Shown here: piece by piece, positions 14,629 to 28,568 of the stretch
How the letters are laid out: the number at the start of each line of letters is the position of its first letter
How positions within the stretch are numbered: position 1 is the stretch's first letter
Assembly (NCBI GenBank): GCA_913055635.1
Contig: CAJXLK010000006.1
Coordinates: 1-64,000 of the forward strand
Source: an uncultured Bacteroidota bacterium
Lineage (GTDB): Bacteria > Bacteroidota > Bacteroidia > Bacteroidales > UBA12077
Reading direction: 5' to 3'
DNA length: 64,000 bases
The notes under the pieces: model-generated
What the model was told of the DNA's origin: nothing
What the model saw: only the letters and a program-made list of their open reading frames with translations
Databases searched by the model: none
Program-made: the position numbers and the translations under genes

Positions 14629-14646
14629 ATAAAAATATATAACAGA

Positions 14647-14750: not shown

Positions 14751-14795
14751 TCCAGACAGGATACCAGACGGGATTTCAACCAAAACCTCAACTCC

Positions 14796-15557: not shown

Positions 15558-16404
15558 ACAGCAGTTCGCGTTGCTGGGAAGCATAGTCGATGCATTTCTG
15601 CCAGTCGTCGAGGTAGGCGTGATCGATCTCCTTCAGTTTATCCTGCGGAATGAGCGGGCGGTTGCTGGCCCATTTCTCCGGGAAAAATTGTGCGAAAAAG
15701 GCGATTGAGTGCAGCAGCAGTCCGCTGAATTTTTTGTAGGTGAACTTAACCGCCTTGTTGCGGATCCCCGAATGGTCGTACTGGTAAAAGCGGTTGAAGC
15801 GCCTTACCATCCTCAGTTGCCTGGGATTGTACGATTTTTTTACCGTTTGCACCCGGATGTCATTGCGGTTGTATTCGGCCCCCATGTAATCGGCCAGCAT
15901 ATCGATCACACCATAAGGGTTTTGCTTGAGTTCCTCCTGGAAAAGCACCAGGGGTCGGTGTTGGAACTGTTCCTCGAGGAATTTGATCTTGGGGAAGAAA
16001 AGCAGGTTGTCGGTGCCCAGGACCCCGTTGCCGTTTAGGTCAAAATAGCCGTTGAAATCGCGGTCGCCGTGCTTCCGCAGGTAGTACTTGTATTTGCTCT
16101 GCAGCCACCGGGTGTGTTTGCGAAGCACGATGATGGGGTAGGTGTGGGGGTATTTGGCCGCCACATCTTTCACCTTGCCGATGCCCCCGCTGTGATCCAG
16201 GCTCAGCTCAATGGACAGCAGCACCCGTTCGGCGCCACCCTGGCCAATCAGCTGGTCGCGCCGCTTGAAATCATGCTTTTTGATGAAGCGGATGCCACGG
16301 AATTTGGGGAAAACATTCCGCTGCAAAAACGTGGAGGCCGTCTTGGGCAACCCCACATGAAAAAATATGGTCTTGTCGCTTCGCTGTTGCTGGCTTTGAT
16401 TCAT
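15538..16404 (-). CDS. Sulfotransferase-like protein
   Basis: A 288-residue protein with the PAPS-loop-like HVGLPKTASTFLQ (residues 16-28) and a weaker 3'-phosphate segment VLRKHTRWLQSKYKYYL (93-109). The overall layout matches the gene at 25826-26662: both have PKFRGIRF or PKLKGVHY after the loop, then VLFQEELKQNP or ILFHDELKKDP, and a DDWQKC ending, so the two are paralogues. Arg replaces the usual RNP/RDP context, so activity is less certain than for its neighbours. It converges with, and overlaps by 20 bp, the plus-strand sulfotransferase. Confidence 0.75.
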   Translation of the reverse strand: MNQSQQQRSDKTIFFHVGLPKTASTFLQRNVFPKFRGIRFIKKHDFKRRDQLIGQGGAERVLLSIELSLDHSGGIGKVKDVAAKYPHTYPIIVLRKHTRWLQSKYKYYLRKHGDRDFNGYFDLNGNGVLGTDNLLFFPKIKFLEEQFQHRPLVLFQEELKQNPYGVIDMLADYMGAEYNRNDIRVQTVKKSYNPRQLRMVRRFNRFYQYDHSGIRNKAVKFTYKKFSGLLLHSIAFFAQFFPEKWASNRPLIPQDKLKEIDHAYLDDWQKCIDYASQQRELLFNKKPE

Positions 16405-16568
16405 ACCCCTGGCGTTTTTATGGGCTTTTCACTGTATATCTTGCGGTATATGTGTTTGGTCATCTGATTAATTATAAGTTTTTTATGAAACCGGCTTTTC
16501 CTTGTGCCACCTGCTTTTCCCGGCTTTTTTGCCCGAAGCAAAACGGTAACTGATTGATCTTTTTTATA

Positions 16569-17666
16569 TTAACCCTGCGCCACCTCCTCGTAGAGCGCCT
16601 TCATTTGCTGTACGGTATGGTTAATGTGGAAGTTATTGGCGATGTGCCGGCGGGCGGCCACGCCCATTTGCTTTTTCTTTTCCGGATGATTCCTGAGGAA
16701 GCGAATGGCTTCGGCAATTTGCCCGGGCGATTTGGGCTGAACCAGCATCCCGGTTTGTTTGTTGATCACCAGTTCCGGGTTGCCGCCGATGGAGGTGGCT
16801 ATTACTGGCAGACCGGTGCTCATGGCTTCCACGGTAACCTTCGACAGGCCCTCTCCGCGGATAGATGGCAGGGCCAGGGCATCGCAGATGCTCAGGTGGT
16901 TGAGCACATCGTTTTGATGGCCCAGCAGATGGAAATTCTTGCGCAGGGGCGATTGCCCAATCAGCTTCATGTGTTCGGGGGTGTCCATGTTCCGGCCGAT
17001 CAGCATGAAGTGGATGTTGCTGTCCCCTTGCAGTTGGTGGGAAGCCTTTATCAGGTAAGGGATGCCTTTCATGGGCCGTGCATTGGCCACACAACCTACC
17101 ACAAAAGCATCATCGGGAATGCCGAATTGTTCGCGGCGGTATGGCTCCACTTCACCGTACCAACCCGGGTCATGCCCCTTGTAGACCGTTACCGCCCTGT
17201 CTTTGTGGAATAAGAGCTGGCGGCGCACCTGCTTTTCCACTCCCTGCGACACACACGTGATGCGCCTGACCCGGGGGTTGAGGTGGCCCAGGTGCGCGGT
17301 GGGCTTATACCACACCAGGTGCCCGGTGTAACCGCGGTAGGTCATGATCCTGACCGGCAGGCCCAAAGAGGCCATGACCGTGTTGACCACCGCCCGGTTG
17401 TTGAAAACATGCACGATGTCGTATTGCCCCTGCCGGAGGATGCTGCGGATATGACGGATCTCCTTCAGGCTGAACTTGCGCTCCGGCTTGTAAGGATGGA
17501 TATGAATGCCGGCCTCCTGGAAACGCCCTATGTAAGGACCGCGGGGAGGCGTCATCACATCCAGGTCGATCCCGGCCTGCTTCAGCTGCAGGACCATCTC
17601 CGCCTCGGGCCGCACGGCAACCTTCGAGCCGGCGTAGGAACTTATAACAAGCACTTTGGGGGCCAT
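16569..17666 (-). CDS. Glycosyltransferase, GT4-like
   Basis: A 365-residue GT-B glycosyltransferase. The N-terminal domain (KVLVISSYAGSKVAVRPEAE; YDIVHVFNNRAVVNTVMASL) binds the acceptor. The C-terminal domain has GCVANARPMKGIPYLIKAS and the family EX7E motif in GEGLSKVTVEAMSTGLPVI. No membrane segment. It is on the same strand as, and just upstream of, the sulfotransferase-like gene, so sugar transfer and sulfation may act on one product. Donor and acceptor cannot be told. Confidence 0.87.
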   Translation of the reverse strand: MAPKVLVISSYAGSKVAVRPEAEMVLQLKQAGIDLDVMTPPRGPYIGRFQEAGIHIHPYKPERKFSLKEIRHIRSILRQGQYDIVHVFNNRAVVNTVMASLGLPVRIMTYRGYTGHLVWYKPTAHLGHLNPRVRRITCVSQGVEKQVRRQLLFHKDRAVTVYKGHDPGWYGEVEPYRREQFGIPDDAFVVGCVANARPMKGIPYLIKASHQLQGDSNIHFMLIGRNMDTPEHMKLIGQSPLRKNFHLLGHQNDVLNHLSICDALALPSIRGEGLSKVTVEAMSTGLPVIATSIGGNPELVINKQTGMLVQPKSPGQIAEAIRFLRNHPEKKKQMGVAARRHIANNFHINHTVQQMKALYEEVAQG

Positions 17667-18050
17667 ATCTACTGGGTCATGATCAGGGGGGCAAAGATAA
17701 ATAAAATTATTTGCCAGGTTGACCTGTCTTTCAAACAGGGGTTGCCCTTTCCATTATATATGGATTGGCCTGTCGCTCAAATGTGTATTGCCCCGTCCAT
17801 TAAACATGGGTTGCCGTGTCTTTCAATCATGGGTCGGTAAACATCGTTTGTGCTATCCCTTAAACAGGGGTTGTCCTTTTCATTATATATGGATTGGCCT
17901 GTCGCTCAAACAGGGCTGGCTTTCCACTTTGTACATGGGTCAATTGTGTGCGCTGCTGCACGTACGCATCACAGGCATTCCCCAAATGCAGGTTTCTTTT
18001 GATTTTGTTATCTTTTGGTGGATTTGGAGGTCAGTTCTGCCCCTACGGGT
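17667..18050. repeat. 384-bp gap with a 129-bp imperfect repeat
   Basis: AAACAGGGGTTG followed by CATTATATATGGATTGGCC and TGTCGCTCAAA occurs at about 17733 and again at about 17862. Shorter related pieces (CCATTAAACATGGGTTGCC, TTTCAATCATGGG) lie between them. No gene is seen. Confidence 0.7.
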
Positions 18051-18932
18051 TTACGTTGCTTTTTCCAGGTGTTCCTGCAGCTGGTTCCATGCCCCGTTGA
18101 TTTTGGTTTTCAGCTCCCGGTCATATTCCATGATGGTTTGGGCCTGGGTCATGGCCCGGACGAAATTTTCATTGTAGGGAAGTTCCGCCAGCAGGCGCAT
18201 CGATTTTTCCTCGGCAAAGGTTTTGATTTGTTCGGTGATTTCGGGGTTGAGGTCGGCCTTGTTGATGATCACCCCTGCCGGCAGGGTAAAGTGGGAGATC
18301 AGGTCCCAGGCCCTTTTCAGGTCATGCAGGCCGGAGAGCGATGGTTCGGTGACCACCACCACGTAGTCGGCGCCGGTGACCGAAGCGGTAACCGGGCAGC
18401 CAATACCGGGGCTCCCGTCAACAATCAGGTAATTTTTCTGCTGTTCCTGCGCCTGGTTTTTGGCCAGGTTCTTGACCTGGGTTACCAGTTTGCCGGAGTT
18501 TTCGGCCGCGATGGCCAGCTCGGCATGGACCATCGTGTTGCCCAGGCGGGAGGTGGAGATGTAGGTGTGGCCCGAGAGGGCATCCAGCATATTAACGGCC
18601 TGCGTGGGGCATATCCTTTCACAATAACCGCACCCTTCGCAGTCGAGCTCGTCGACCACAAAGTCGCCGTTGACCCGCTTGATGGCATCAAAGGCACACA
18701 CTTTGACGCATTTGTTGCACCGTATGCATTTGTCCATGTCGATCTCGGCGGTCAGCCCGCTGTAAAAGGTCTCGGCGTTGGCAAAATCGGGTGCCAGCAA
18801 CAAATGCATGTCGGCGGCATCCACGTCGCAGTCGGCCACCACCGACTCTTTGGCCGCCAGCCAGGCAAAGGAAGCAGTGATCGATGTTTTGCCCGTTCCA
18901 CCTTTGCCCGATATGATAACAAGCTCTTTCAT
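18051..18932 (-). CDS. P-loop ATPase of MinD/NBP35 type with inserted ferredoxin domain
   Basis: A 293-residue protein. Deviant Walker A SGKGGTGKTS (8-17); a two-cluster ferredoxin insertion with Cys69, 72, 75, 79 and Cys98, 101, 104, 108; then the MinD-like core (YLIVDGSPGIGCPVTASV; VVVVTEPSLSGLHDLKRAW; GVIINKADLN). Such proteins bind two [4Fe-4S] clusters beside an ATP site. Relatives work in iron-sulfur or heterometal cluster handling, including the two ATPases of the Desulfovibrio orange-protein complex. Its start overlaps the stop of the paralogous upstream gene by 4 bp, so the two are co-translated, perhaps as a heterodimer. Precise function unknown. Confidence 0.88.
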   Translation of the reverse strand: MKELVIISGKGGTGKTSITASFAWLAAKESVVADCDVDAADMHLLLAPDFANAETFYSGLTAEIDMDKCIRCNKCVKVCAFDAIKRVNGDFVVDELDCEGCGYCERICPTQAVNMLDALSGHTYISTSRLGNTMVHAELAIAAENSGKLVTQVKNLAKNQAQEQQKNYLIVDGSPGIGCPVTASVTGADYVVVVTEPSLSGLHDLKRAWDLISHFTLPAGVIINKADLNPEITEQIKTFAEEKSMRLLAELPYNENFVRAMTQAQTIMEYDRELKTKINGAWNQLQEHLEKAT

Positions 18933-19822
18933 TCTTCTTCCTTTTGACCGGGCAAAACCGATTGCCCGGTGATTTGTGAAATGTTTTCCAGAATGTGGAA
19001 CAACTGTTCCCTGACTTCGGGGATGCTGCTGATCAGCTCGCCCCGCGAATATTTGCGTGCGATCTCTGTCATGTTGGGGATCCGGCCAATGATGTCAACC
19101 CCTTCTTCCCTGCAGTATTCAACGGTGTCGTTGTTTCCGATGCCGTCGCGGTTGATGACCACTCCGAAGCGTTTGCCGATCTTGCGCATGGTCTTCACCG
19201 AAAGCTTCAGGTCGTGCAGGCCAAAGGGCGTGGGTTCGCTGACCAGGATCACATAGTCGGCATCCTTGACCGATTCAATGACCGGGCAGGAGGTGCCGGG
19301 CGGGGCGTCATAAACGTGCAGGGCCGATTCCGGGAATTTTTCCCGGCTGTAGTCCATGGTTTGTGCGATCATTGGTACGGCCTGCTGTTCGCCGATCTTC
19401 AGCTCGCCTTCCACGAAATTCAGTTTTTCGCTGGTCATGTGTTTGAGCCGGCCGATGTGGTGGTCCGTCATGCGCAGGGCGTTTTCCGGGCACAATCCCA
19501 CACAGGCGTTGCATGAATGGCAGAGTTCGGGGAAAACCAGCACCTGGTTGGGCAGTACCGCAATGGCATTGAACTGGCACACATCCCGGCAGATGTTGCA
19601 GTAGGTGCACTTTTCCTCGATCCATTCGGGGATCTTCCGGGTAACACGCTGTTCATCGACCACCTCACTGTTGAGGAAGAGCCCGGAATTGGGCTCTTCC
19701 ACATCCAGATCGGTCAGCACCGTCTCCGCTTCCGGATAGGTGGCGCTTACTAGTTTGGCCAGGTTCACCGACAGGGTGGTCTTACCCGTACCCCCCTTGC
19801 CGCTGGCAATGGCTATGGTCAT
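18929..19822 (-). CDS. Second MinD/NBP35-type ATPase with ferredoxin insertion
   Basis: About 297 residues, paralogous to the downstream gene: Walker A SGKGGTGKTT (7-16), Cys72, 75, 78, 82 and Cys101, 104, 107, 111, then VYDAPPGTSCPVIESVKDA and ILVSEPTPFGLHDLKLSV. The start at MTIAIASGKGG is chosen because it is the family N-terminus and leaves a 28-bp gap; a longer frame would overlap the flavoprotein gene. It forms a 4-bp overlap with its partner. Paired ATPases of this kind next to a NifX-like protein are typical of anaerobes. Confidence 0.88.
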   Translation of the reverse strand: MTIAIASGKGGTGKTTLSVNLAKLVSATYPEAETVLTDLDVEEPNSGLFLNSEVVDEQRVTRKIPEWIEEKCTYCNICRDVCQFNAIAVLPNQVLVFPELCHSCNACVGLCPENALRMTDHHIGRLKHMTSEKLNFVEGELKIGEQQAVPMIAQTMDYSREKFPESALHVYDAPPGTSCPVIESVKDADYVILVSEPTPFGLHDLKLSVKTMRKIGKRFGVVINRDGIGNNDTVEYCREEGVDIIGRIPNMTEIARKYSRGELISSIPEVREQLFHILENISQITGQSVLPGQKEEE

Positions 19823-19850
19823 AGATGGATGGTCTTTTGGGTGTTGATCC

Positions 19851-21245
19851 TTATTTGGTGGAAGCTGTGGCTTCAACCTCTTTGGCCTGCTCCACCTTGA
19901 TGTTTTGAGCGGCTATTTCAGCTGCTTTCATCAGCGGGTAAGCGGCCGGTGAACCGGTCAGCAGCGGCTGGGTGCCGATCTGTGATATCAGCAGGGTGTG
20001 CACGCTGGTGCGGCTCTGGATGATGAAACCCAGCAGGTTGGTCAGCTCGCCGACCGAAACCCCGCCAAAGGCTTCGCCGCCGATGATGATGCCCGATTCG
20101 CGGGCTACAATCAGTTTGACCCTCTGTTTGTGCATGCCAGGCAGCTTGCCGGGGTGCTTGTCCATGCCCTCGAAAGAGCCTGAAACCACGTCGAAACCCT
20201 CGGCCCGGGCATCGGCTTCGGTGATGCCAGCCGTTCCAAAGGCATAGTCACCTACAGCTGTGCTGTATATGGCAATGGTTCCACTGAAGGTCTTGATGGC
20301 CGAAAGTTTGAAAAGGTTCATCCCGGCGATCCGACCCTCGGCACACGCCGTGGAGGCCAGCATGACCCCGCTCTGCTGACGGGTGATGAAATGCCGCTTC
20401 TCGGCGCAGTCACCCACGGCAATGATGTTGGGATCGTTGGTGCGCATGTATTCGTCGGTGGAGATGAAGCCATTGTCATTCAGCTTCAGGCCTGAATCAT
20501 CGGCCAGCTTGGAGTTGGGTTCATAGCCCATCGACAGAACCACCGCGTCGGCTTCTACTTGCTTGCCGTTTTCCAACTCTACATACGATACTTTGCCATT
20601 TTTGCCCTTGATGGCTTTAACCCCGCAATTGTTCATTACATGAACACCTCGGTTGGATAGAATCTGTTCAGCCTGCTCGGCAAATTCCTTGTCAAAAGCA
20701 AGGTTCAGAATGTGGGGCAGCTTCTCTACAATCGTTACCAGTTTGCCCGATTTGTTGAGCTCATCGGAGAATTCGACCCCGATGAATCCGCCACCGATCA
20801 CTACCACGCGGTCCAATCCAGTCAGCTTCTGCTTGATCTGGTCCAGCACTTCCTTGTTCTTGGGCATGGTGAAGACATTCTCCAGGTCGGTGCCTTCCAG
20901 CCAGCCGGGTACCTTTGGCGTGGATCCGGTGGCCATCACCAGCTTCTGGTAACCGATCTGTGAACCGTCGCTCAAGGTGCAGACCTTGTTCTTGCGGTCG
21001 ATGTTTTCCACTTCTCCCACCTGGTATTTGATGCCCAGGGCATCGTACTTGCTGTCGGCCGGCAGCACATTTTGGTCTGAACTTTCAAGTGAGCCGAAAA
21101 TATAGGGTATCCCGCAGGGAACCATTACTTGATCTTCCTTGCGTATAACGGTGAATTCCTTGTCCGGGTAATTGTTCTTCCCGGACATTGCTGTTGCCAG
21201 CCCTGCTGCGCTGCTTCCGATGATTAATACGTCTGTGTTTTTCAT
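19851..21245 (-). CDS. FAD-dependent pyridine nucleotide-disulfide oxidoreductase (CoA-disulfide reductase/NADH oxidase type)
   Basis: A 464-residue flavoprotein: FAD motif VLIIGSSAAGLATA (6-19), single redox Cys44 in VPCGIPYIFG as in CoA-disulfide reductases and NADH oxidases, NAD motif VVVIGGGFIGVEFSDEL (147-163), second FAD block IIAVGDCAEKRHF, and the dimerisation domain at the C-terminus. Members reduce CoA disulfide, persulfide or oxygen with NAD(P)H. It lies 28 bp upstream of the ATPase pair and 23 bp downstream of the CGGC gene, all on one strand, so it may supply electrons to, or protect, the thiol and Fe-S proteins of the set. Confidence 0.88.
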   Translation of the reverse strand: MKNTDVLIIGSSAAGLATAMSGKNNYPDKEFTVIRKEDQVMVPCGIPYIFGSLESSDQNVLPADSKYDALGIKYQVGEVENIDRKNKVCTLSDGSQIGYQKLVMATGSTPKVPGWLEGTDLENVFTMPKNKEVLDQIKQKLTGLDRVVVIGGGFIGVEFSDELNKSGKLVTIVEKLPHILNLAFDKEFAEQAEQILSNRGVHVMNNCGVKAIKGKNGKVSYVELENGKQVEADAVVLSMGYEPNSKLADDSGLKLNDNGFISTDEYMRTNDPNIIAVGDCAEKRHFITRQQSGVMLASTACAEGRIAGMNLFKLSAIKTFSGTIAIYSTAVGDYAFGTAGITEADARAEGFDVVSGSFEGMDKHPGKLPGMHKQRVKLIVARESGIIIGGEAFGGVSVGELTNLLGFIIQSRTSVHTLLISQIGTQPLLTGSPAAYPLMKAAEIAAQNIKVEQAKEVEATASTK

Positions 21246-21268
21246 TTTTGTTGAGTTTTAGGGGTTCT

Positions 21269-21730
21269 TTAATTATAGGCCAAACGGGTTTGTTCGTCGG
21301 CCATAACAGGTTCAATGATTTCAGGCCAGTTACCGTGGTTCCAGGATCCCAGTTTTTCGTGGTTGATGCGGTATTTTTCGGGGATGGGATGGGTGCCCAT
21401 CACCACTTCCAGGCCAAAGCGGTTTTCGATGTACGACTGGAAGTATTCGATGTAGGGGCAGGGGGGATAACCCACGATCATGCCGGTGGCGAAATGAACG
21501 GTTTGTACGCCGTTTTTGGCCATTTCTTCGGGTACGTATTCGATGTTGCCGCCGGGGCAGCCGTCGCAGGTGGCATAAGCGGCCACTTCTACGGGTTGGT
21601 TTTGATAACGTTCGAAGGCGCCTTCACGGTTGCGCAGTGCCCTGAAGCACTTGCCGCCTCCGCAGCGGTGATAACGATGGCAAATGATGATGCCAACTTT
21701 ATGCGATTCTTGATTTTCTGATGGTTCCAT
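21269..21730 (-). CDS. CGGC domain protein, putative metal binding
   Basis: A 153-residue cytoplasmic protein with Cys17 and His in IIICHRYHRCGGGKCFRAL, the CGGGKC box at 23-28, and a second Cys pair in TCDGCPGGNIEYVP (55, 58); a further Cys lies in GYPPCPYIEYF. This matches the CGGC domain family, proposed to bind metal because of its conserved Cys and His. It precedes the flavoprotein and ferredoxin-ATPase genes by 23 bp. A long tandem repeat separates it from the DUF89 gene upstream, so it may start a second transcript. Confidence 0.82.
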   Translation of the reverse strand: MEPSENQESHKVGIIICHRYHRCGGGKCFRALRNREGAFERYQNQPVEVAAYATCDGCPGGNIEYVPEEMAKNGVQTVHFATGMIVGYPPCPYIEYFQSYIENRFGLEVVMGTHPIPEKYRINHEKLGSWNHGNWPEIIEPVMADEQTRLAYN

Positions 21731-21799
21731 AAGCTTTATTTTGATGGGGTTGTGTTCGTTGAACGCCTCTGGCGGCCTTTTTCAGAAATCTCGTTACGG

Positions 21800-22200
21800 G
21801 TTTTCCTTTCAGGGAATTCCTTTCAGGGATCCCGCTTTAGGGCTTTCTTTCAGGGAATTCCTCTCAGGGATTCCGCTTCAGGGCTTTCTTTCGGGGAACT
21901 CCTTTCAGGGATTCCCGCTTAAGGACTTTCCTTCCGGGGGTCTCCTTTCAGAGATCCCGCTTTAGGGCTTTTCTTTGGGAATCTCCTTTCAGGGATTCCG
22001 CTTCAGGGCTTTCCTTTCGGGAATCTCCTTTCAGGGATCCCGCTTCAGGGCTTTCCTTTCGGGAATCTCCTTTCAGGGATCCCACTTTAGGGCTTTCCTT
22101 TCGGGGAATTCCTTTCAGGGATTCCGCTTCAAGACTTTCCTTTCGGGAATCTCCTTTCAGGGATTCCGCTTCAGGGCTTTCCTTTCGGGGAACTTTTCCT
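21800..22200. repeat. 42-bp minisatellite, about 9-10 copies
   Basis: Tandem copies of a 42-bp unit built from CCTTTCAGGGATTCCGCTTC and AGGGCTTTCCTTTCGGGAA fill the gap between the CGGC and DUF89 genes. Divergence rises towards 21800. Because the period is a multiple of three, long repetitive open frames exist on the plus strand, but they are not genes. The rest of the gap to 22400 shows no gene. Confidence 0.92.
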
Positions 22201-22403
22201 AAAGGCCCTTGTCAGGGGACCAACTTTTGATTTCGGCCCAATTGCGGAGGCCGATGTCTTTTATTTTTATTAAGATTAATTTTAAATGGTGACTTAAAAA
22301 AATCCGCCTTTTTTCGGCGCCAATTACGGGAAGCCCTTATATATGGTTCGTCCCGCGGTTCGTTAAATCTGGTCCTTCATAAGCCGAAGGTTATTCTAGA
22401 ACG

Positions 22404-22441
22404 GTTGAACCCTTACTTATCTGAGTAAGGCCGGGTTCAAC
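22404..22441. terminator. Hairpin directly after the DUF89 gene
   Basis: Arms GTTGAAC(CC) and (GG)GTTCAAC enclose a second perfect stem CCTTACT / AGTAAGG with a 6-base loop. It begins 3 bases past the DUF89 stop on the minus strand. There is no long U-run, so it may be a 3'-end stabiliser instead of an efficient terminator. Confidence 0.45.
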
Positions 22442-22443
22442 GG

Positions 22444-23301
22444 TTATGCTTTTTCTTGCCCGTGGCTGTTGGATACCACAAAATCGCCTTTGTTGACACC
22501 GAGCATGTTGCCGATCACCTGGCATTTAACCATCAAAAGGAACCACAACCGGTGGTCGTTCTGATGCATAAGCCCTTCAAAGTTTCCCTGGCCCTTGGCG
22601 ATGATTATATCGGCCTTCAGGTATGCCCGGGCAAATTCTTCACTTGCCTGGTCCATAATGGTTGAAGGGGCATCGTAGCCGTTGCTGATCACCTCTGCCA
22701 CTTTGTCCATGCCTACTGTCTGGGCATCTTCAAGGGTGGCATCGTTGATCACGGGTTGGCCCCTGACAGCAAACGTGACGTGGGGGTGACCGATCGTCTC
22801 CAGGAAAAGCCGGTCCATAACGATTTCCCCGGCATTGTCTCCTATATAGAGGATGTTTTGTGCGTTTTGTATGCGTTTGCGCAGGATGTCCGAATGATCA
22901 ATGGCAAAGCGGGCCTGCTCCACTTCGCGGAGCGTTTCATGCACGTTGAAGTGACTGGAAGGCCCGTAATCCATGATATTTCCTGCAATGGCATAACGCA
23001 GGGCCCTGTTGAAGGGATCCTGTGCCTGGTGAATGTTCTTCCGCAGATCGGGCATCAGCGCCAGGGCCATCTTGTTGCCCTCTTCCTTTTCATGGCGGTA
23101 GGGGTCGGGATCATCCAGGTACTCGCGGATCAGGGCATGAAATTCCCTTGCAATGTAAGGGGTTGGCTGGCTGGTGTCGGCTTTTGCCAGCATATCAAAG
23201 AAACGCTGCGACATCCTTAGCTTCTCCTCATTATCCGGGATGTGCTTCTCCAGCAATTTTTCAAATGCCCGTGCGAAACAATACAAACATTGATAATTCA
23301 T
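22444..23301 (-). CDS. DUF89/ARMT1-like metal-dependent phosphatase
   Basis: A 285-residue protein of the DUF89 family: N-terminal Cys5/Cys8 in MNYQCLYCFARAFEKLL (archaeal-type subfamily), the metal site YIGDNAGEIVMDRLFLE (152-168), NDAT at 186-189, and the KGQGNFEGL motif near 236. Family members are metal-dependent phosphatases linked to clearing damaged phosphometabolites; the substrate here is unknown. The start is set at the family N-terminus; the frame extends 36 codons further but without similarity. It lies between the NifX-like and CGGC genes on one strand. Confidence 0.85.
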   Translation of the reverse strand: MNYQCLYCFARAFEKLLEKHIPDNEEKLRMSQRFFDMLAKADTSQPTPYIAREFHALIREYLDDPDPYRHEKEEGNKMALALMPDLRKNIHQAQDPFNRALRYAIAGNIMDYGPSSHFNVHETLREVEQARFAIDHSDILRKRIQNAQNILYIGDNAGEIVMDRLFLETIGHPHVTFAVRGQPVINDATLEDAQTVGMDKVAEVISNGYDAPSTIMDQASEEFARAYLKADIIIAKGQGNFEGLMHQNDHRLWFLLMVKCQVIGNMLGVNKGDFVVSNSHGQEKA

Positions 23302-23544
23302 CCGCCCTGCTTTCTGTTTTATGATTGAACTTTTGGTGCCGCCATCTGCACTCATTCTATATTTTGGCCCTGTCCAATTATGCCGGTGGCAAAGGATGAT
23401 GGCCCTCAACTACAGCGGAGCTCAATCCTGATGGTATTCTATCACCACATCACCACAGCATTACATGATGACAGCGCCAAATTATGGACCGCACAAAATC
23501 ATGGCTGCATCAAATTTTGGCTTTGCCGGATTATCTGTCTCCCT

Positions 23545-23880
23545 TCAGTGGTCGCACAAGTTGGCCTGGGTAACCAGCTCGCCGGCCAGGAACTGCTCGA
23601 CGATGGTTTGTGGTTCTTTGCTGGGGGCCCCGACGAATACGTTGACCCCCTTCTGGTTGAAGATGTCGATGGCCCGCTGGCCCATGCCGCCGGCGATCAC
23701 GTCGGTGGCCTTGTTGTCGCTTACCCACTGTGGCATAACACCCGGGGCATGCGGCGGAGGCGTGTGGGCCTCGGCTTTTTTGATCTGCTCGTCTTCGATC
23801 TCAAAAAAGTGAAACTCCTCGCAATGCCCAAAATGCAACGCAAGTTTTCCCGCTGTTACCGGTACCGCTATCTTTTTCAT
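23545..23880 (-). CDS. NifX/NifB-type cofactor-carrier domain protein (MTH1175/orange-protein-like)
   Basis: A 111-residue protein of the dinitrogenase iron-molybdenum cofactor family: KKIAVPVTAGKLALHFGHCE at the N-terminus, then GGMGQRAIDIFNQKGVNVFV, a ribonuclease H-like fold that cradles a metal cluster. His16, His19 and Cys20 in the HFGHCE segment are possible ligands. No nitrogenase genes are near, so the cargo is not FeMo-co. Stand-alone members beside ferredoxin-MinD ATPases include the Mo/Cu-sulfide orange protein of Desulfovibrio. A -7 box lies just upstream. Confidence 0.88.
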   Translation of the reverse strand: MKKIAVPVTAGKLALHFGHCEEFHFFEIEDEQIKKAEAHTPPPHAPGVMPQWVSDNKATDVIAGGMGQRAIDIFNQKGVNVFVGAPSKEPQTIVEQFLAGELVTQANLCDH

Positions 23881-23899
23881 ACTTTGATTTTTACTGTTA

Positions 23900-23907
23900 C
23901 AAAATTA
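23900..23907 (-). promoter_or_regulatory. -7 box (TAATTTTG) of the NifX-like gene
   Basis: Minus-strand TAATTTTG matches TAnnTTTG and lies 20 bases before the start codon at 23880, giving a leader of roughly 13 bases. The region where a -33 TTG should be is pyrimidine-rich and lacks one. Confidence 0.45.
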
Positions 23908-23944
23908 CTGTAAACTTTCTTTTCTTCTCTCACATCTAATCATG

Positions 23945-24418
23945 TTATACAATACTCCCTACTCATTACTCCCTACTAATTAACTCCCTACTAATTAACT
24001 CCCTACTAATTAACTCCCTACTCATTACTCCCTACTAATTTACTCCCTACTAATATACTCCCTACTAATTAACTCCCTACTAATTACTCCCTACTCATTA
24101 CGCCCTACTCATTACTCCCTACTAATTAACTCCCTACTCATTACTCCCTACTAATCACTCCCTACTAATCACTCCCTACTAATTAACTCCCTACTCATTA
24201 CTCCCTACTAGTATACTCCCTACTAATTAACTCCCTACTAATTACTCCCTACTAATCACTCCCTACTCATTACTCCCTACTCATTACTCCCTACTAGTAT
24301 ACTCCCTACTAATTTACTCCCTACTGATTACTCCCTACTAATCACTCCCTACTAATTAACTCCCTACTCATTACTCCCTACTAATTAACTCCCTACTCAT
24401 TACTCCCTACTAATTACT
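23945..24418. repeat. CTCCCTACT array, about 32 copies
   Basis: The core CTCCCTACT recurs about 32 times at 14-15 bp intervals with only one core change (CGCCCTACT). The linkers vary among a small set: AATTAA, AATTA, CATTA, AATCA, AGTATA, AATTTA. It fills the whole space from just upstream of the NifX-like gene to the stop codon of the DUF134 gene. A constant core with variable linkers differs from the uniformly decayed repeats of other gaps. A shorter array of the same core lies beside serS. Confidence 0.95.
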
Positions 24419-24420
24419 AC

Positions 24421-24996
24421 TTACTTCTTCTTAATCATCTGTTGCCCGCAACGGGGGCAGGTCAGTTCCGAACAGGGCGTTCCGGGACCGGCTGTTTCCT
24501 GATGCCGGCAATTCGGACACACGCACCTTTTGCCGTTGGCCTGGTGCCACCCATGGCCCCGTCGGTGCTGTTGTCCGGTTTGCCATTGGCGAAGTGATTC
24601 GTTGATGTGTTCAACCTCTTCTCCGCCACAGGAAGTACATACCGGCTTTTCGCCCTGTGGTACGTGAAAAATGGTATGGCAGGATGAACAGCGGTACCAT
24701 TGCTCTTCAAACTCTACGTTGCCGCCTTCGATTAGGATGGCACGTCCTTCTACAAATGCCTGGGCCAGCTTCTTGCGGATCTTTTCATACATCCGGGTGA
24801 AGGTAGGCCGCGAGACATTCATCCTTTTGGCGGCTTCCGCGTGCGAGAGGTTCTCATAGTCGGCCAGCCGGAGGGCTTCATATTCCTCGTACTGAACCGA
24901 GATGTTCTCACTCATCGACATGGGTACGCCCATCGGCTTGAATCCCATGAGCCTGGGTGGCTGGCCCAGCCTGCGGTGTCTTTTAGGTCGTGGCAC
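24421..24996 (-). CDS. DUF134 DNA-binding protein with C-terminal zinc ribbons
   Basis: A 191-residue predicted regulator. The DUF134 domain (PRPKRHRRLGQPPRLMGFKP; EEYEALRLADYENLSHAEAA) includes a sigma-70 region 4-like helix-turn-helix at about 51-75 (AAKRMNVSRPTFTRMYEKI). It is followed by a zinc ribbon with Cys103, 106, 120, 123 and a second Cys cluster at 158, 160, 163, 175, 180, 183. Most DUF134 proteins end near residue 100, so the extra metal ribbons are a notable extension that could sense metal or redox state. It is the likely regulator of this gene set, an inference from position only. Its last codons (three Lys) abut the CTCCCTACT array. Confidence 0.87.
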   Translation of the reverse strand: MPRPKRHRRLGQPPRLMGFKPMGVPMSMSENISVQYEEYEALRLADYENLSHAEAAKRMNVSRPTFTRMYEKIRKKLAQAFVEGRAILIEGGNVEFEEQWYRCSSCHTIFHVPQGEKPVCTSCGGEEVEHINESLRQWQTGQQHRRGHGWHQANGKRCVCPNCRHQETAGPGTPCSELTCPRCGQQMIKKK

Positions 24997-25105
24997 TGGT
25001 TTTTGCTGTAAAGTTAATCAATGTTGGGTGAAAACCCGGCAGATTAATTGCATCTGCTGTTCATCCGTTGCATACCTTTTCAAAGAGCGTGTAGAAGGGT
25101 GGAAG

Positions 25106-25477
25106 CTATTCTTCCAGGTCCTTGATGCGCTTGTTCACCTCATCCAGGGTACGCTGGAGCCTTTCAGCCTCGTATTTGAGCTGCTGAAGCTCTTCTTCCC
25201 GGGTAGGTGCCAAATCTTCAGGTGGCTGGGCGGGTTGGACGAAACGGTTGCGGAAACCACCGCCAAAGCCGCGGGCATTTCTCCAGGCCATGCCCGGTCC
25301 CATGCCCCGGCCCATACCAGGGCCCATTCCACGGCCCCATCCTGGACCCATGCCGCGGCCCATGCCGCGCCCCGGTCCGTACATGTATCCCGGCGCATCA
25401 TTGCCGACGCAGTAACCCATTGCTCTGCCTGTTCGGGGTCCTGCTCCTGTTGGTCCTGATTGATCTCCTCGTGGCAT
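25106..25477 (-). CDS. DUF5320 Gly/Met-rich protein with coiled-coil tail
   Basis: A 123-residue protein starting MPRGDQSGPTGAGPRTGRAM, the DUF5320 signature, with a lone Cys in GYCVGN. Residues 30-75 are a run of GMGRGMGPGM-type repeats, then a Pro-rich hinge and a C-terminal coiled coil (about 90-123). Such genes habitually neighbour NifX-like and ferredoxin-MinD genes in anaerobes; the function is unknown. The Met/Gly tract could bind soft metals, which is inference. It is first in the minus-strand set, with a full promoter and palindromic operator upstream. Confidence 0.82.
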   Translation of the reverse strand: MPRGDQSGPTGAGPRTGRAMGYCVGNDAPGYMYGPGRGMGRGMGPGWGRGMGPGMGRGMGPGMAWRNARGFGGGFRNRFVQPAQPPEDLAPTREEELQQLKYEAERLQRTLDEVNKRIKDLEE

Positions 25478-25514
25478 ATTGAACTCCTTTCTTTTTTTAG
25501 GTTCGTTGCTGATG

Positions 25515-25545
25515 CAAATATAATGAACATATGTTCAAAATCCAA
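25515..25545 (-). promoter_or_regulatory. Promoter of the DUF5320-DUF134 set
   Basis: Minus-strand TATATTTG (25522-25515) matches the -7 consensus. A TTG (25545-25543) lies 20 bases upstream at the -33 position. Transcription would start near 25508, about 30 bases before the DUF5320 start codon. Confidence 0.65.
25524..25537. promoter_or_regulatory. Perfect 14-bp palindrome TGAACATATGTTCA (operator candidate)
   Basis: The palindrome fills the spacer between the -33 and -7 elements of the DUF5320 promoter. That is the standard place for a dimeric repressor, or for a MerR-type regulator that reshapes the spacer. No second copy was noticed elsewhere in the window. The DUF134 protein encoded next in the set is the obvious candidate to bind it. 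Confidence 0.65.
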
Positions 25546-25737
25546 GTTTTTGAACGAAAAAGATTGGAGTTATTGTATATTGGTGTGATGCGTAAATTTT
25601 TAGCTGAGTTCGGAATACTGCCAAACTTACTTCAATGAGGAACTCCGGTTAGTTCAAAAGACCTGTGGCCTGGCTTATCCGGGAAGAAGTTGGTTCACCG
25701 GATAGCATAAACATTCGGCAAGCTCACAGAAAAAATC

Positions 25738-25745
25738 TATATTTG
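25738..25745 (+). promoter_or_regulatory. -7 box (TATATTTG) before the fifth sulfotransferase
   Basis: TATATTTG matches TAnnTTTG and lies 80 bases before the ATG at 25826. No TTG at the -33 distance. The rest of the gap from 25546 to 25825 holds no recognisable feature. Confidence 0.4.
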
Positions 25746-25825
25746 CAGGCCGGAACCCAGGGGGGAGTTAAACCCGATGGGATTCAAACCGATATTCAGG
25801 TTAAATCAGCACAACATCAACGGAT

Positions 25826-26662
25826 ATGCAGCAAGGCGACCGATCTTTTGAATTATATTGCCATGTGGGATTGGGCAAGACCGCATCAACCTATCTTCAG
25901 TACCGCTTTTTCCCGAAACTTAAAGGGGTGCATTACATACAGCGCACCAAATACCGGCATTTTGAGAAGATTGTAGATCAGGGGAGGCACTCGAAATATC
26001 TGGTATCGAGGGAGTTTGATCGGCAGTTTGAACGGGAGGTCCGGCGCATTGCCCGCAATTATCCCGATGCCGGAATCATCATTGTGCTCAGGCGGCACGA
26101 CAGCTGGATTGCTTCACAGTACAGGCGGTATGTGAAAAACGGGGGAACCGAACCCTTTGAGAATTTCCTGGACTTACAGCACGACAATGGTTTATGGGAA
26201 CAAAAGGATGTTTATTTCCACCCCAAGCTGAAGCTCCTCGACGAGCTGTTCAGACGTAAGCCGCTGATCCTGTTTCATGATGAACTTAAGAAGGATCCGT
26301 GGACCTTTTTCGACCGCATTGCCGAATACATTGGCGCCACATATGACCGCAACCGCATTGTGGTCAACCCGTCTCATAAATCGTACACGGAGAAGCAGCT
26401 GAAGATCCTTCGGCGGGTTTCGCGGCGGTTGTTTCCACGGGGATGGAAAGGATCCAAAAACCGCATCCGCCATTACATCCGCTTTCGCTCGCGGTGGCTG
26501 TTGCTGCACCTGATCCTCTATGCTGCGGCCCTGATGCCAAAGAGCCGTGCCGGTGATGAGCCGCTGATACCTACCCGCCAACTTGAACAAGTGCGCGAAC
26601 ATTTTAAGGACGACTGGCAAAAATGCCTGCAGCATGCCGGTGAAAATGGCGCCGGGGGATGA
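25826..26662 (+). CDS. Sulfotransferase-like protein, paralogue of 15538-16404
   Basis: A 278-residue protein with the PAPS-loop-like HVGLGKTASTYLQ (13-25) and a later VLRRHDSWIASQYRRYV segment at the 3'-phosphate position. It shares its whole layout with the gene at 15.5-16.4 kb (PKLKGVHYIQ; ILFHDELKKDPW; ending DDWQKCLQHAGE). A G replaces P in the usual xPK(T/S) loop. The downstream flank is repeat DNA, and it is transcribed away from the metal-cofactor set, so it is probably an outlying member of the sulfation genes. Confidence 0.75.
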   Translation: MQQGDRSFELYCHVGLGKTASTYLQYRFFPKLKGVHYIQRTKYRHFEKIVDQGRHSKYLVSREFDRQFEREVRRIARNYPDAGIIIVLRRHDSWIASQYRRYVKNGGTEPFENFLDLQHDNGLWEQKDVYFHPKLKLLDELFRRKPLILFHDELKKDPWTFFDRIAEYIGATYDRNRIVVNPSHKSYTEKQLKILRRVSRRLFPRGWKGSKNRIRHYIRFRSRWLLLHLILYAAALMPKSRAGDEPLIPTRQLEQVREHFKDDWQKCLQHAGENGAGG

Positions 26663-26699
26663 ATCGTGCTCCGGTCTGTCCCTTATCTGTTGAATACCT

Positions 26700-26930
26700 G
26701 TGGGGTCTGATCCTCCTGTCGCTGGATTTTTCTCCACCCAGATGCTGCTTCACTTAAAACCTTTTTTCACTCAGGTCCTTCTCCAGTCAGGTTGGATTGC
26801 TCTTTACTTGGATCTCTCTCCAGTTGGATTCATCTCCAGTCAGATCAATTTCCATTTGGATCCATCTCCACTCAGATTCCTCTCCACTCAGATTCATCTT
26901 CCCCTGGTCGTTTTATATCCGTCCTTGTTT
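26700..26930. repeat. Degenerate tandem repeat, about 20-bp unit
   Basis: Repeated forms of CTCCA(C/G)T(C/T)(A/G)GATTCATCT fill this part of the 350-bp gap between the sulfotransferase and comF, best preserved at 26866-26900. No gene seen. Confidence 0.7.
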
Positions 26931-27012
26931 TGCTTGTTAACGCCCCTGCGGGTCATTTTCTTCTGGATTTTTATCCCAAAAAGCTGTAACTTCATGTTTC
27001 AATTGAGGTGCG

Positions 27013-27711
27013 ATGGATTTTTTGCGGAGACTGGGCGAAGATGCCATAGGGGTAATTTTTCCGGAGATATGTGTGGCCTGTGGGGGCAAGGTGGTACGGG
27101 GCCGGCGTTTTTTGTGCACCTCCTGCCTGTATCATTTGCCCCGCACTTATTTCCACCGGTATGATGACAATCCCCTGGCCATGGAGTTTTGGGGCCGGGT
27201 GCGCCTGGAGCATGCGGCCGCCTGGTTCCATTATACCAAGGGCAGCCGTTACCCGGTATTGATTCATGCTTTGAAATACATGGGTCGCCGGGAGCTCGGT
27301 TACGAGCTGGGGCGGCTCTATGCCCATGAGCTGGACGACACGTTTGTTTATGAGACAACGGTGATTGTGCCGGTACCCCTTCACCGCCGCAAAAAGCGCC
27401 AGCGCGGATACAACCAGAGTGAGTGGATTGGCCGGGGCCTGGCGCAGGTTTTGAACAAGCCCCTTCAAACAAACAATCTGTGCCGGGTGCACTACACCAA
27501 AACCCAAACCCGCAAATCAAGGCTGGAGCGGTGGCAGAATGTGAAAAATGTTTTCCGCCTCCGCCAGCCTCAGCTCCTGGAAGGGCAGCACGTCCTGTTG
27601 GTGGATGATGTGGTTACCACCGGGGCCACCCTCGAGGCCTGTGCCGATGTTTTGCTTTTGTGTCCCGGCACCCGGGTCAGCGTGCTGGCCCTGGGCTATG
27701 CTAACCTGTGA
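27013..27711 (+). CDS. comF: ComF-family phosphoribosyltransferase-like protein
   Basis: A 232-residue protein with the N-terminal zinc finger (FPEICVACGG ... FLCTSCLYHLP), the central VPVPLHRRKKRQRGYNQSE motif, and the PRPP-binding loop LLVDDVVTTGATLEA near residues 197-211. ComF proteins are linked to DNA uptake and replication-restart steps of natural competence; many carriers are not known to be competent. Length is normal. It converges with folK, the two coding ends overlapping by 16 bp. Confidence 0.92.
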   Translation: MDFLRRLGEDAIGVIFPEICVACGGKVVRGRRFLCTSCLYHLPRTYFHRYDDNPLAMEFWGRVRLEHAAAWFHYTKGSRYPVLIHALKYMGRRELGYELGRLYAHELDDTFVYETTVIVPVPLHRRKKRQRGYNQSEWIGRGLAQVLNKPLQTNNLCRVHYTKTQTRKSRLERWQNVKNVFRLRQPQLLEGQHVLLVDDVVTTGATLEACADVLLLCPGTRVSVLALGYANL

Positions 27712-28217
27712 ACCTTTCCCGCGTCTTCACATTCGTCCAGCAGTTGGGAGATGGTTTTCCCGAAGACCGGATGGATCATGCCGGGGGCCATTTCGGCCAG
27801 GGGTTCCAGGGTAAAGCGTCTTTTGTGGAGTTGGGGATGGGGGATGATCAGGTGGGGCAATTGAAGGATCCGCCTGCCAAAAAAAAGGATATCCAGGTCG
27901 ATCACCCGGCTGTTATAGTTCCCGCCTGCATCGGCCGCCGCACGGTTGCGGCCCAGCTCCTGCTCGAGCGATCTCAGTGTGTCCATCAGCGGCTCCGGCT
28001 GCAGGTGCGTGTGCAGCTTGACCACCTGGTTCAGAAAGTGCTGATCGGCCTCGAATCCCCAAGGCTCGGATTCGTATATCCCGGAGCAGAAGTCAATGGT
28101 GCCTGCTCTCTGATCGAGCCCGTGGCGGGCCATCTCCAGCATCCGGAAGCGATCCCCCAGGTTGCCCCCCAGCAGGATGAAGGCTTCCTCATTTCCATGA
28201 ACGGAAGAATCTGTCAT
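27696..28217 (-). CDS. folK: 2-amino-4-hydroxy-6-hydroxymethyldihydropteridine diphosphokinase
   Basis: HPPK, which pyrophosphorylates hydroxymethyl-dihydropterin in folate synthesis. The 173-residue protein has the N-terminal FILLGGNLGDRFRML, the substrate segment YESEPWGFEADQHFLNQVV, and the family signature SRVIDLDILFFG with the two Mg-binding Asp. The upstream flank is a 350-bp gap with hairpins; the 3' end overlaps comF by 16 bp. Monofunctional: no FolB or FolP domain is fused. Confidence 0.94.
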   Translation of the reverse strand: MTDSSVHGNEEAFILLGGNLGDRFRMLEMARHGLDQRAGTIDFCSGIYESEPWGFEADQHFLNQVVKLHTHLQPEPLMDTLRSLEQELGRNRAAADAGGNYNSRVIDLDILFFGRRILQLPHLIIPHPQLHKRRFTLEPLAEMAPGMIHPVFGKTISQLLDECEDAGKVHRLA

Positions 28218-28287
28218 TTTTTCTGTATGATTTTGTATCTTGGTGAAGTCGATGCCTGGATTAGATAAAAAAAAGCCCGGCTGGCTG

Positions 28288-28311
28288 ATATTGAGAATTT
28301 TTCCTCAATAT
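28288..28311. other. Hairpin in the folK-sppA gap
   Basis: A perfect 8-bp inverted repeat ATATTGAG / CTCAATAT with an 8-base T-rich loop. Weak stem, role unclear. The rest of the gap 28218-28568 holds only the hairpin-repeat cluster listed next. Confidence 0.35.
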
Positions 28312-28411
28312 ATGGATTTTGTTTGTAATAATTGGCCGGCTCAGGCGACAGATTAGGTAAATATAAGGCAATCCCACGAAAAAACCTTGGGGTCGGCCTT
28401 GATGAACCGAA

Positions 28412-28523: not shown

Positions 28524-28568
28524 TCCAAAATAAAACTGTATGTATAACAACTTAAAATTTCATGCATC

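Follow-up and report, generated by a model that had tools for sequence, protein, structure and literature searches.

Eight same-strand genes preceded by a palindrome

The window, a 64,000-nucleotide stretch of a contig from an uncultured Bacteroidota bacterium, carries eight intact minus-strand open reading frames (ORFs) between positions 18051 and 25477 (Table 1). The first-pass annotation had described a same-strand set of eight genes in these families; the ORF list gave the same order and strand, and all eight products exceeded their Pfam cut-offs (CbiA and Fer4 for both MinD1 and MinD2, Pyr_redox_2, CGGC, ARMT1-like/DUF89, Nitro_FeMo-Co, DUF134, and DUF5320). Pfam assigns no function to DUF134, DUF5320, or CGGC.

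Table 1. Features of the locus, in window coordinates
Feature	Position	Strand	Basis
MinD1, P-loop ATPase with inserted 2x[4Fe-4S]-type ferredoxin	18051..18932	-	CbiA + Fer4
MinD2, partner ferredoxin-ATPase, likely start ~19822	18929..19876	-	CbiA + Fer4
FAD/NAD(P)H pyridine nucleotide-disulphide oxidoreductase, CoA-disulfide-reductase-like	19851..21245	-	Pyr_redox_2 216 bits
CGGC protein, invariant Cys/His	21269..21730	-	PF08821 100 bits
DUF89/ARMT1-like, predicted metal-dependent phosphatase, likely start ~23301	22444..23409	-	PF01937 227 bits
NifX type A, stand-alone MrpORP C-terminal (Di-Nase) domain, 111 aa	23545..23880	-	PF02579 60.8 bits
DUF134 regulator, sigma70-region-4-like HTH and C-terminal CxxC ribbons	24421..24996	-	PF02001 84.8 bits; Sigma70_r4_2 26.1 bits; alignment A5
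DUF5320, Gly/Arg/Met-rich segment and coiled-coil-like C-end (by eye)	25106..25477	-	PF17253 67 bits
TATATTTG, a TANNTTTG element, 1 nt after palindrome	25515..25522	-	window sequence
Perfect palindrome TGAACATATGTTCA, proposed DUF134 operator	25524..25537	.	46 nt from DUF5320 start codon

The gene overlaps that had also been claimed held up in part. MinD1 and MinD2 securely overlap by 4 nt (18929-18932), but the overlap of the FAD gene with MinD2 hinges on a TTG start of MinD2; most of the aligned MinD2 homologs start at MxIAIASGKG (~19822 here), which would leave a 28-nt gap to the FAD gene. DUF89 probably starts at MNYQ (~23301), and the gap between NifX and DUF89 is then ~240 nt. Two gaps contain tandem arrays: a 14-bp array (23953-24418) occupies the space between DUF134 and NifX, and a 42-bp array (21798-22191) takes up much of that between CGGC and DUF89. 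The gene unit is not tight in the window. In a locus of the same genus (L036), 10 nt separate DUF134 and NifX.

The eight families co-occur in other genomes

The neighborhood survey covered 59 genomes, the source genome and 58 relatives. The ferredoxin-ATPase pair was present in 27 of the 59, and NifX, DUF134, DUF89, and CGGC cluster beside it. Those matches that lie on the contig of the pair and no more than 12 kb from it amounted to 10 of 14 for CGGC (0.04 expected under a uniform distribution), 14 of 23 for DUF89 (0.07), 22 of 49 for DUF134 (0.15), and 52 of 102 for NifX (0.32), after removal of rows under the Pfam cut-off (7 DUF134 and 4 NifX); the counted genomes are related, so that Fisher values overstate independence. 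DUF89 also occurred in 4 of the 32 genomes that lack the pair. All eight families were found together in five relatives' loci, and the proposed set thus extends beyond this genome. In a collection of 80 named loci anchored on MinD2, the families encoded on the MinD2 strand were MinD1 (76), NifX (75), DUF5320 (45), DUF134 (28), DUF89 (16), FAD (13), and CGGC (10). The profiles for this count and for the eight-family count were grown from matches in the same loci, and DUF5320 is of low complexity. The core was found across many phyla and in archaea.

DUF89, CGGC, and the flavoprotein are linked to the set by neighborhood only. The flavoprotein scored below the equivalog cut-offs of all three CoA-disulfide reductase models (226.7 of 458, 225.2 of 578.8, and 119.3 of 394 bits). 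Its Cys44 lies in a PCGIPY motif that is also present in the aligned structure 4fx9, and the Cys of (P)CGIPY is presumably the catalytic Cys of CoA-disulfide reductase; further relatives in the PDB are 6pfz, 3kd9, and 8a56. Those of DUF89 are 2g8l and 2ffj. In CGGC, residues C17, C23, C28, C55, C58, H79, C91, and H114 are invariant in 11 of 11 aligned sequences. Its AlphaFold2 model (pLDDT 93) had no clear match in the PDB (Foldseek best E, 4.3e-3; VIA-align best Z, 6.9, with an rmsd of 3.6 over 92 aligned residues). CGGC is missing from the same-genus loci L036 and L037 and is therefore not essential.

These three genes could be passengers from other pathways beside a core ORP-type module of MinD1, MinD2, NifX, DUF134, and DUF5320. 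Each of them is absent from part of the clusters, and the scan of loci with the eight profiles gave no frame in which any of them is fused to the core. Against this stand the CGGC and DUF89 counts within 12 kb of the pair, far above expectation, and the joint presence of CGGC and DUF89 in the named loci L063, L074, L079, and L125. We regard the passenger explanation as very unlikely.

The window NifX is a stand-alone MrpORP domain

The window NifX matched the MrpORP model NF041136 at 125.8 bits over profile positions 265 to 365, which correspond to the C-terminal domain. The excerpts available of PMC6345978 give CXHFGHCE and CDH as motifs of this Di-Nase domain. The window protein has HFGHC near its N-end and CDH as its C-end, with Ala at the leading Cys of CXHFGHCE; it differs from MrpORP in that the P-loop Mrp half is missing. 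Among members of this type (type A), which were picked for alignment by the type A motif, H16, H19, C20, H44, C109, and H111 are invariant (23/23). A structural model of the type A protein (pLDDT 94) resembles 2yx6 with a TM score of 0.89.

The sequence of the Desulfovibrio gigas orange protein (ORP; 2wfb) gave no match to the window NifX at E<=0.1, though the fold is common to both, and an ORP-type NifX of this genome lies on another contig, C2 (L034; 2wfb E=3.3e-18). Thus, identity of the window NifX with the orange protein was ruled out. This genome also encodes a NifX with a basic Gly-rich tail (L035). Strong matches to the Mrp-type family PF10609 at C4:33049 and C6:77057 lie apart from all three NifX places of the genome, and a second DUF134 of the genome adjoins an Mrp/ApbC-type ATPase on contig C4.

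NifX and NafY carriers of Nif systems have the same fold (NafY, 1p90; NifX in 9ian), but the nitrogenase family PF00148 had 0 matches in this genome, which is 99.31% complete. An accessory role in nitrogenase was ruled out on this ground, in line with the earlier statement that no target enzyme is at hand.

Other loci join members of the set in single frames. NifX is followed by DUF5320 in one frame above both Pfam cut-offs in 4 of 10 loci scanned (L081, L083, L104, and L133), and MinD2 is fused to MinD1 in L074. A second NifX type, B, precedes type A in single frames in L085 and L123, and DUF134 is joined to NifX in L145, in one genome only. We report these four kinds of single frame as new. 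In addition, Mrp-like::NifX-A frames occur in L085, L092, and L108; the last scored as MrpORP at 543 bits (cut-off, 450) and is situated behind the ATPase pair, so that relatives of the pair adjoin a full MrpORP. An RFGR-type NifX follows MinD1 in L037 and L052.

The DUF5320 fusions bear on a role in iron-sulfide storage or metal-sulfide detoxification, in which NifX and DUF5320 would hold a thioferrate-like or Mo/Cu-sulfide material that the ATPases load and unload. In the parts of PMC5524996 available, IssA is proposed to bind thioferrate via a cationic Gly-rich tail. This architecture resembles the NifX::DUF5320 fusions and the tailed L035 protein of the same genome, and in other loci NifX carries DUF5320-like tails and Gly/Arg-rich ones in the same frame. 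The window NifX differs from IssA: it is of type A and ends at CDH without a tail, a gene of its own encodes the tail-like part, and the type A protein has defined Cys/His ligand-like residues; mineral binding by DUF5320 is hypothetical. A storage function thus appears quite improbable to us, and we prefer NifX as the holder of a defined cluster. As a separate observation, a Gly-rich NifX tail and a strict DUF5320 gene occurred together in 4 of 105 loci, the tail only in 11, DUF5320 only in 52, and neither in 38 (p=0.048); such mutual exclusion is too weak for use, and the fusions are the better argument.

Both ferredoxin-ATPases have a NifH-spaced switch-II cysteine

In MinD1, the switch-II Cys179 (DGSPGIGC) and eight ferredoxin cysteines are invariant in 14 of 14 aligned sequences, as is Cys197 (DAPPGTSC) in MinD2 (alignment A1, 14/14). 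Both ATPases therefore share the switch-II spacing D-x6-C with Asp125 and Cys132 of NifH, where we take Asp125 to be the switch-II residue. The Cys was present in all 98 MinD1 and all 105 MinD2 sequences counted, whereas Mrp-like ATPases of the same loci have D at this position in 32 of 33 cases, a count that leaves out four weak matches with ferredoxin motifs that are not MinD. The 80 named MinD2 loci were retrieved by a peptide pattern containing this Cys, and the unbiased count is that of the relatives' MinD2 (25) together with MinD1. A NifH-spaced switch-II Cys in both ATPases, absent from neighboring Mrp ATPases, is new here.

According to the excerpts available of PMC9571451 and PMC10745740, the cluster ligands of NifH are Cys97 and Cys132, and nucleotide acts on the cluster via switch II. 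The conserved D-x6-C could thus mark MinD1/MinD2 as an ATP-driven low-potential reductase, like the nitrogenase Fe protein or BchL, that serves a cofactor or enzyme coded elsewhere, with NifX type A as a docking or accessory part. However, each subunit has only one such Cys versus two in NifH, part of the MinD2 count was preselected for this residue, and NifX stands with MinD1/MinD2 in 75 of the 80 named loci, a better fit to a carrier. We consider a reductase unlikely and favor a pair that acts on a cluster carried by NifX.

A conserved palindrome precedes the DUF134 and DUF5320 genes

Exact copies of the palindrome TGAACATATGTTCA were found at 17 sites in 15 of the 59 genomes, compared with 1 site for the reversed control, and 15 of the 17 lie directly upstream of DUF134/DUF5320. 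TANNTTTG, which we take to be the Bacteroidota -7 promoter consensus, stood at offset 0 or 1 in 24 of 38 palindromes. Of the 44 loci that encode a full-length DUF134, 20 have no TGAACNNNNGTTCA near a DUF134/DUF5320 start. A 16-mer form of the palindrome, absent from the source genome, occurred in 1 of 395 genomes of the phylum (all 395 being counted, DUF134-bearing or not), at 2 sites that are both upstream of DUF134-DUF5320-NifX-ferredoxin genes. The arrangement of TGAACATATGTTCA beside TANNTTTG, conserved before DUF134/DUF5320 far above controls, is new here. It supports the claim that the set has its own regulator: TGAACATATGTTCA is likely the control site of DUF134, whose binding is predicted from this placement.

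Genomes with an exact TGAACATATGTTCA have one, except for two each in the source genome (G000) and G001, and nearly all are at this cluster. The exceptions not before DUF134 are G000:C2:175330 and G001:C164:8767, the latter near a contig end. A scan of the whole source genome gave 2 exact and 2 one-mismatch places. The possibility that a DUF134 regulon would reveal the cargo was rejected: scans of the source genome and of the 59 genomes that include it yielded no target enzyme, because exact sites are nearly always at this cluster. An ORF that looks sigma-factor-like by eye has its likely start ~75 nt beyond the C2:175330 site, which has no TANNTTTG behind it.

Among the open-licence matches listed, no title or abstract opening concerned a DNA site of DUF134 (UPF0251, COG1342), and the excerpts available of PMC10434189 and PMC5886521 held nothing usable on DUF134. 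Likewise, no title among the DUF5320, CGGC, DUF134, and NifX-family matches listed dealt with this gene set. In the same literature, the one paper to name at least two of DUF134, DUF5320, DUF89, the CGGC domain, COG1149, and COG1433 concerns G-quadruplexes.

A probable variant of the orange-protein system

The closest known system is the ORP complex of Desulfovibrio. As the first-pass annotation had noted, paired ferredoxin-MinD ATPases stand beside a NifX-family protein in both; this likeness to Orp3/Orp4 is drawn at the level of families. The relation is incomplete in that the window NifX is a MrpORP domain rather than the orange-protein type (Orp8): it stands alone, with the ORP-type NifX (C2) and Mrp (C4) unlinked. 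The excerpts available of PMC6345978 report that Orp3 copurifies with Orp4 and Orp8, that MrpORP passes Fe-S to them, and that a cell-division role was once proposed for ORP; those of PMC4641369 and PMC6345978 describe sigma54-dependent divergent operons with a DVU2106-type activator. The window instead has the DUF134 regulator, and the sigma54-activator family is absent from the eight proteins and from nine flanking ones (12584 to 30332). It also adds DUF89, CGGC, DUF5320, and the flavoprotein. AF2378-AF2380 of Archaeoglobus fulgidus are also among the closest known systems, by their description in the available part of PMC3949148.

We think it somewhat probable that the set is a locally regulated, Bacteroidota-type variant of the ORP system; the TANNTTTG element and Bacteroidales loci that share the gene set are the grounds for the term Bacteroidota-type. 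Under anaerobic, sulfidic conditions, it would build or mend a metal-sulfur cluster, keep it bound, and hand it on. NifX type A would hold the cluster via its invariant His and Cys residues. MinD1 and MinD2 may pair as a heterodimer that contains four ferredoxin clusters and in which the switch-II cysteines face each other; ATP would control the passage of electrons or of the cluster to or from NifX. The half that is fused in MrpORP could be provided by the Mrp/NBP35 carrier from contig C4, beside the second DUF134. DUF5320, as a putative detached NifX/IssA-type tail, may aid in holding or storing the cargo, and CGGC might be an additional metal site. The flavoprotein would use NAD(P)H to convert (per)sulfides to thiol or sulfide, and DUF89 may clear a damaging phosphorylated side product. 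DUF134, bound to TGAACATATGTTCA directly ahead of the -7 element, would set the expression level of the unit.

DUF134, DUF5320, and CGGC, to which Pfam assigns no function, recur in this module in bacteria and archaea, and fusions connect the first two with NifX. A short conserved site and a regulator make the purpose of the ORP-type ATPase/NifX module directly testable: the palindrome raises the questions of what metal or stress relieves control there and what further genes have a copy of it. A more specific joint reading, which we find rather unlikely, is that DUF134 is a TGAACATATGTTCA-binding autoregulator and a dedicated cofactor-status switch for a metal-sulfide module widespread in anaerobes, sensing the NifX-bound cluster; that the ATPases form a hitherto unrecognized NifH-like heterodimer coupling ATP to that cluster through the switch-II Cys; and that the storage tail of NifX has become detached as DUF5320. 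On the sensing part, we note the one genome in which DUF134 shares its frame with a NifX domain.

Gene content and arrangement of the set

The eight minus-strand genes constitute an ORP-type module, akin to the orange-protein complex (ORP) of Desulfovibrio, in a new arrangement. The most useful new facts about it are a palindrome, DUF134::NifX and NifX::DUF5320 fusions, and a switch-II cysteine. All eight ORFs are intact and match, above the Pfam cut-off, the families to which the first-pass annotation had assigned them. From the promoter side, the order is DUF5320, DUF134, NifX, DUF89, CGGC, a CoA-disulfide-reductase-like flavoprotein (FAD), and the ferredoxin-bearing ATPases MinD2 and MinD1. 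The overlaps described at first pass were upheld in part: that of MinD1 with MinD2 is firm, and that of FAD with MinD2 hinges on the choice of start, as does the long DUF89 start.

Tandem arrays swell two of the intergenic gaps; at L036, a locus from the same genus, the DUF134-NifX spacing is 10 nt, with no room for an array. Further large arrays, and a near-palindromic unit in dispersed short arrays, are found elsewhere in the window. The flanking proteins comprise sulfotransferase-like proteins, a glycosyltransferase, a phosphoribosyltransferase-domain protein, HPPK, a peptidase S49, and one without a family; none of them suggests a target enzyme for the set. In L148 and L036, too, DUF5320 is flanked by a relative of the right-hand sulfotransferase-like gene.

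Coordinates of features in the window and in other loci
Feature	Location	Remark
Eight-gene set	18051-25477	minus strand
Palindrome TGAACATATGTTCA	25524-25537	upstream of DUF5320
Tandem array	23953-24418	swells DUF134-NifX gap
Tandem array	21798-22191	swells CGGC-DUF89 gap
Further large tandem arrays	17719-17915, 35742-35966, 45357-45702	
ACCCCGCTTAGCGGGGT-like short arrays	14646-14753, 28447-28532, 40209-40291, 52805-52913, 54414-54488	near-palindromic unit
Sulfotransferase-like genes	12584-16404, 25826-26662	either side of set
Metallo-beta-lactamase-fold, radical-SAM, and NifU-type groups	L040:14998-15804, L092:17884-18825, L139:13677-14126	examples among L036-L140
Threonyl-tRNA editing domain (PF08915)	L045:4956-5366	stand-alone
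Third NifX of own genome	L035:8711-10234	contig C35
Run with second DUF134	L165:5594-8204	own genome, contig C4
Second exact palindrome	L141:1501 (G000:C2:175330)	own genome
Palindrome with TATATTTG	L167:4768 (G001:C164:8767)	directed off contig end

Recurrence in other genomes

An alignment search with MinD2 confirmed at least 301 related loci, of which the best 80 were retained. These come from Bacteroidales, Calditrichota, Neomarinimicrobiota, Spirochaeta, Nautiliales, Cloacimonadota, Desulfo- groups, Planctomycetes, Chloroflexi, several archaea, and others. Using profiles grown from the window proteins and counting only genes on the same strand as MinD2, we found MinD1 in 76, NifX in 75, DUF5320 in 45, DUF134 in 28, DUF89 in 16, FAD in 13, and CGGC in 10 of these best 80 of at least 301 loci. 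The same-strand counts therefore define a MinD2-MinD1-NifX core, with DUF5320 and DUF134 as frequent companions and DUF89, the flavoprotein, and CGGC as recurrent options.

We also searched 59 genomes (our own and 58 relatives) with MinD2, CGGC, DUF89, DUF134, and NifX. MinD2 had a match at E ≤ 0.001 in 57 of the 59, mostly to ferredoxin stretches only; the ATPase pair was counted in the 27 genomes with strong matches (E below 1e-30). Genomes with and without the pair, respectively, carried CGGC in 12/27 and 1/32 cases, DUF89 in 18/27 and 4/32, DUF134 in 26/27 and 13/32, and NifX in 27/27 and 18/32. Matches lay within 12 kb of the pair for CGGC (10/14), DUF89 (14/23), DUF134 (22/49), and NifX (52/102), after 7 DUF134 and 4 NifX rows under the Pfam cut-off had been dropped; uniform placement would yield 0.04 to 0.32. 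Because the 59 genomes are related, the co-occurrence p-values are not independent evidence. The neighborhood survey proposed at first pass bore out recurrence beyond our own genome: all eight families occur together in five relatives' loci (L038, L040, L043, L046, and L047), and also in L074 if its fused ATPase frame counts as both.

Several of the proteins are also fused in a single frame. DUF134 and a NifX domain share a frame directly behind the palindrome in one relative. In a scan of 10, both domains of NifX::DUF5320 score over their Pfam cut-offs in L081, L083, L104, and L133; L115 and L139 stay under the cut-off, and the remaining 4 showed no such fusion. NifX-B::NifX-A occurs in L085 and L123, Mrp-like::NifX-A in L085, L092, and L108, and MinD2::MinD1 in L074. 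None of the frames found in the fusion scan of the loci links the core with DUF89, CGGC, or the flavoprotein.

Other groups recur near the ATPase pair in the 105 loci: metallo-beta-lactamase-fold (21), radical-SAM (21), and NifU-type scaffold (15) proteins, one representative of each having been scanned. The related cluster at L045 contains an "archaea-specific" editing domain, with homologs in the bacterial clusters L040, L042, L043, L050, and L062; the PF08915 scan covered L045.

A palindrome set against the promoter

At up to two mismatches, one match to the palindrome within the window is by itself unremarkable (22 of 100 shuffles); its weight comes from conservation across loci. The pattern TGAACNNNNGTTCA has 31 sites in the 105 relative and named loci, 28 of which fall between 250 nt upstream and 120 nt downstream of the point where the longest frame of a DUF134 or DUF5320 gene starts. 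For each of six control patterns there were 1 or 2 sites, and one of all these control sites lies near such a start. The L057 site is upstream of genes running to NifX, DUF5320, NifX, MinD2, and MinD1; those of L115 and L116 lie elsewhere, away from these starts. Among loci with full-length DUF134, 24 of 44 have a nearby site and 20 have none.

The exact palindrome occurs at 17 sites in 15 of the 59 genomes, versus 1 for the reversed control, and 15 of the 17 are directly before DUF134 or DUF5320. A 16-mer form, which our own genome does not have, was found in G145 only, twice, before DUF134-DUF5320-NifX-ferredoxin, in a sample of 395 genomes drawn from the phylum irrespective of DUF134 content. 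Behind the palindrome, the Bacteroidota -7 promoter element TANNTTTG is present at 24 of 38 sites, at an offset of 0 nt at 2 and 1 nt at 22; the rate at offset 1 for random positions, on either strand, is 0.001. It points towards the gene set at 23 of the 24 and off the contig end at L167. This placement of the palindrome against the promoter suggests that DUF134, at its predicted site, would act as a repressor.

The L167 site is a possible second DUF134 target, by prediction. In our own genome, a second exact palindrome, without TANNTTTG behind it, lies some 75 nt upstream of where a sigma-factor-like ORF probably starts. The second DUF134 of this genome is beside an Mrp/ApbC-type ATPase; DUF169 and a weakly KaiC-like protein belong to the same run, all on one strand.

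A switch-II cysteine in the ATPases and features of the optional proteins

In MinD1 and MinD2 alike, eight cysteines belong to the ferredoxin part and one to switch II (D..PG..C). The switch-II cysteine is present in 98/98 MinD1 proteins (96 by motif, 2 with an altered neighboring residue) and in 105/105 MinD2 proteins, the named-locus share of which is biased, as the fetch pattern contained the same cysteine. Mrp-like ATPases of the same loci (n = 33) have DxPPGTGD (29), DLPPGTAD (3), or neither (1). According to PMC9571451 and PMC10745740, the bridging cluster of NifH has Cys97 and Cys132 as ligands, and nucleotide acts on it via switch II. Judging from residue numbers, the Asp125-Cys132 spacing of NifH would be the same +7 as in MinD1 and MinD2. 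Such a spacing points to a possible ATP-gated site like that of NifH, to which each subunit contributes one cysteine instead of two.

The flavoprotein retains PCGIPY with Cys44; its solved relatives include 6pfz, 4fx9, and 8a56 (CoA-persulfide reductase), and its score, under the CoA-disulfide reductase cut-offs, denotes likeness to that family rather than assignment. The DUF89 protein resembles 2g8l and 2ffj. CGGC has a confident alpha/beta model, with its invariant Cys and His residues mostly at or just after strand ends; a structure search with it found no close solved fold.

NifX types and the relation to ORP

There are two main NifX types: A, with HFGHC near the start and in most cases (50/57) CDH near the end, and B, with RFGR or a close variant. 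Both (strict HFGHC plus RFGR) occur in 29 of the 80 named loci (the best 80 of at least 301) and in 20 of 26 relative loci. The window NifX belongs to type A, and its match in MrpORP, an Mrp fused to a NifX-type Di-Nase domain, is the C-terminal domain. Its H16, H19, C20, H44, C109, and H111 are invariant in 23/23 aligned type A proteins, and the confident model (pLDDT 94) has the NifX fold. PMC6345978 reports CXHFGHCE and CDH motifs and a cluster in the MrpORP Di-Nase domain, as well as Fe-S transfer from MrpORP to Orp3-Orp4-Orp8.

Compared with ORP, NifX-A is here split off rather than fused as in MrpORP, DUF134 stands where ORP has a sigma54 activator, and DUF89, CGGC, and the flavoprotein are additions. 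On the features tested, the window set falls outside the ORP complex: an Orp8-type NifX, the MrpORP fusion, and a sigma54-activator gene are absent at the locus. The set nevertheless probably works like that complex. Our own genome also has a type B NifX, on contig C2, which, unlike the window copy, matches the D. gigas orange protein. Its third NifX, encoded on C35, carries a long tail that is basic and Gly-rich; a basic, Gly-rich tail is also described for IssA (PMC5524996). The gene after this NifX is methyltransferase-like and, by eye, similar to one found within related clusters.
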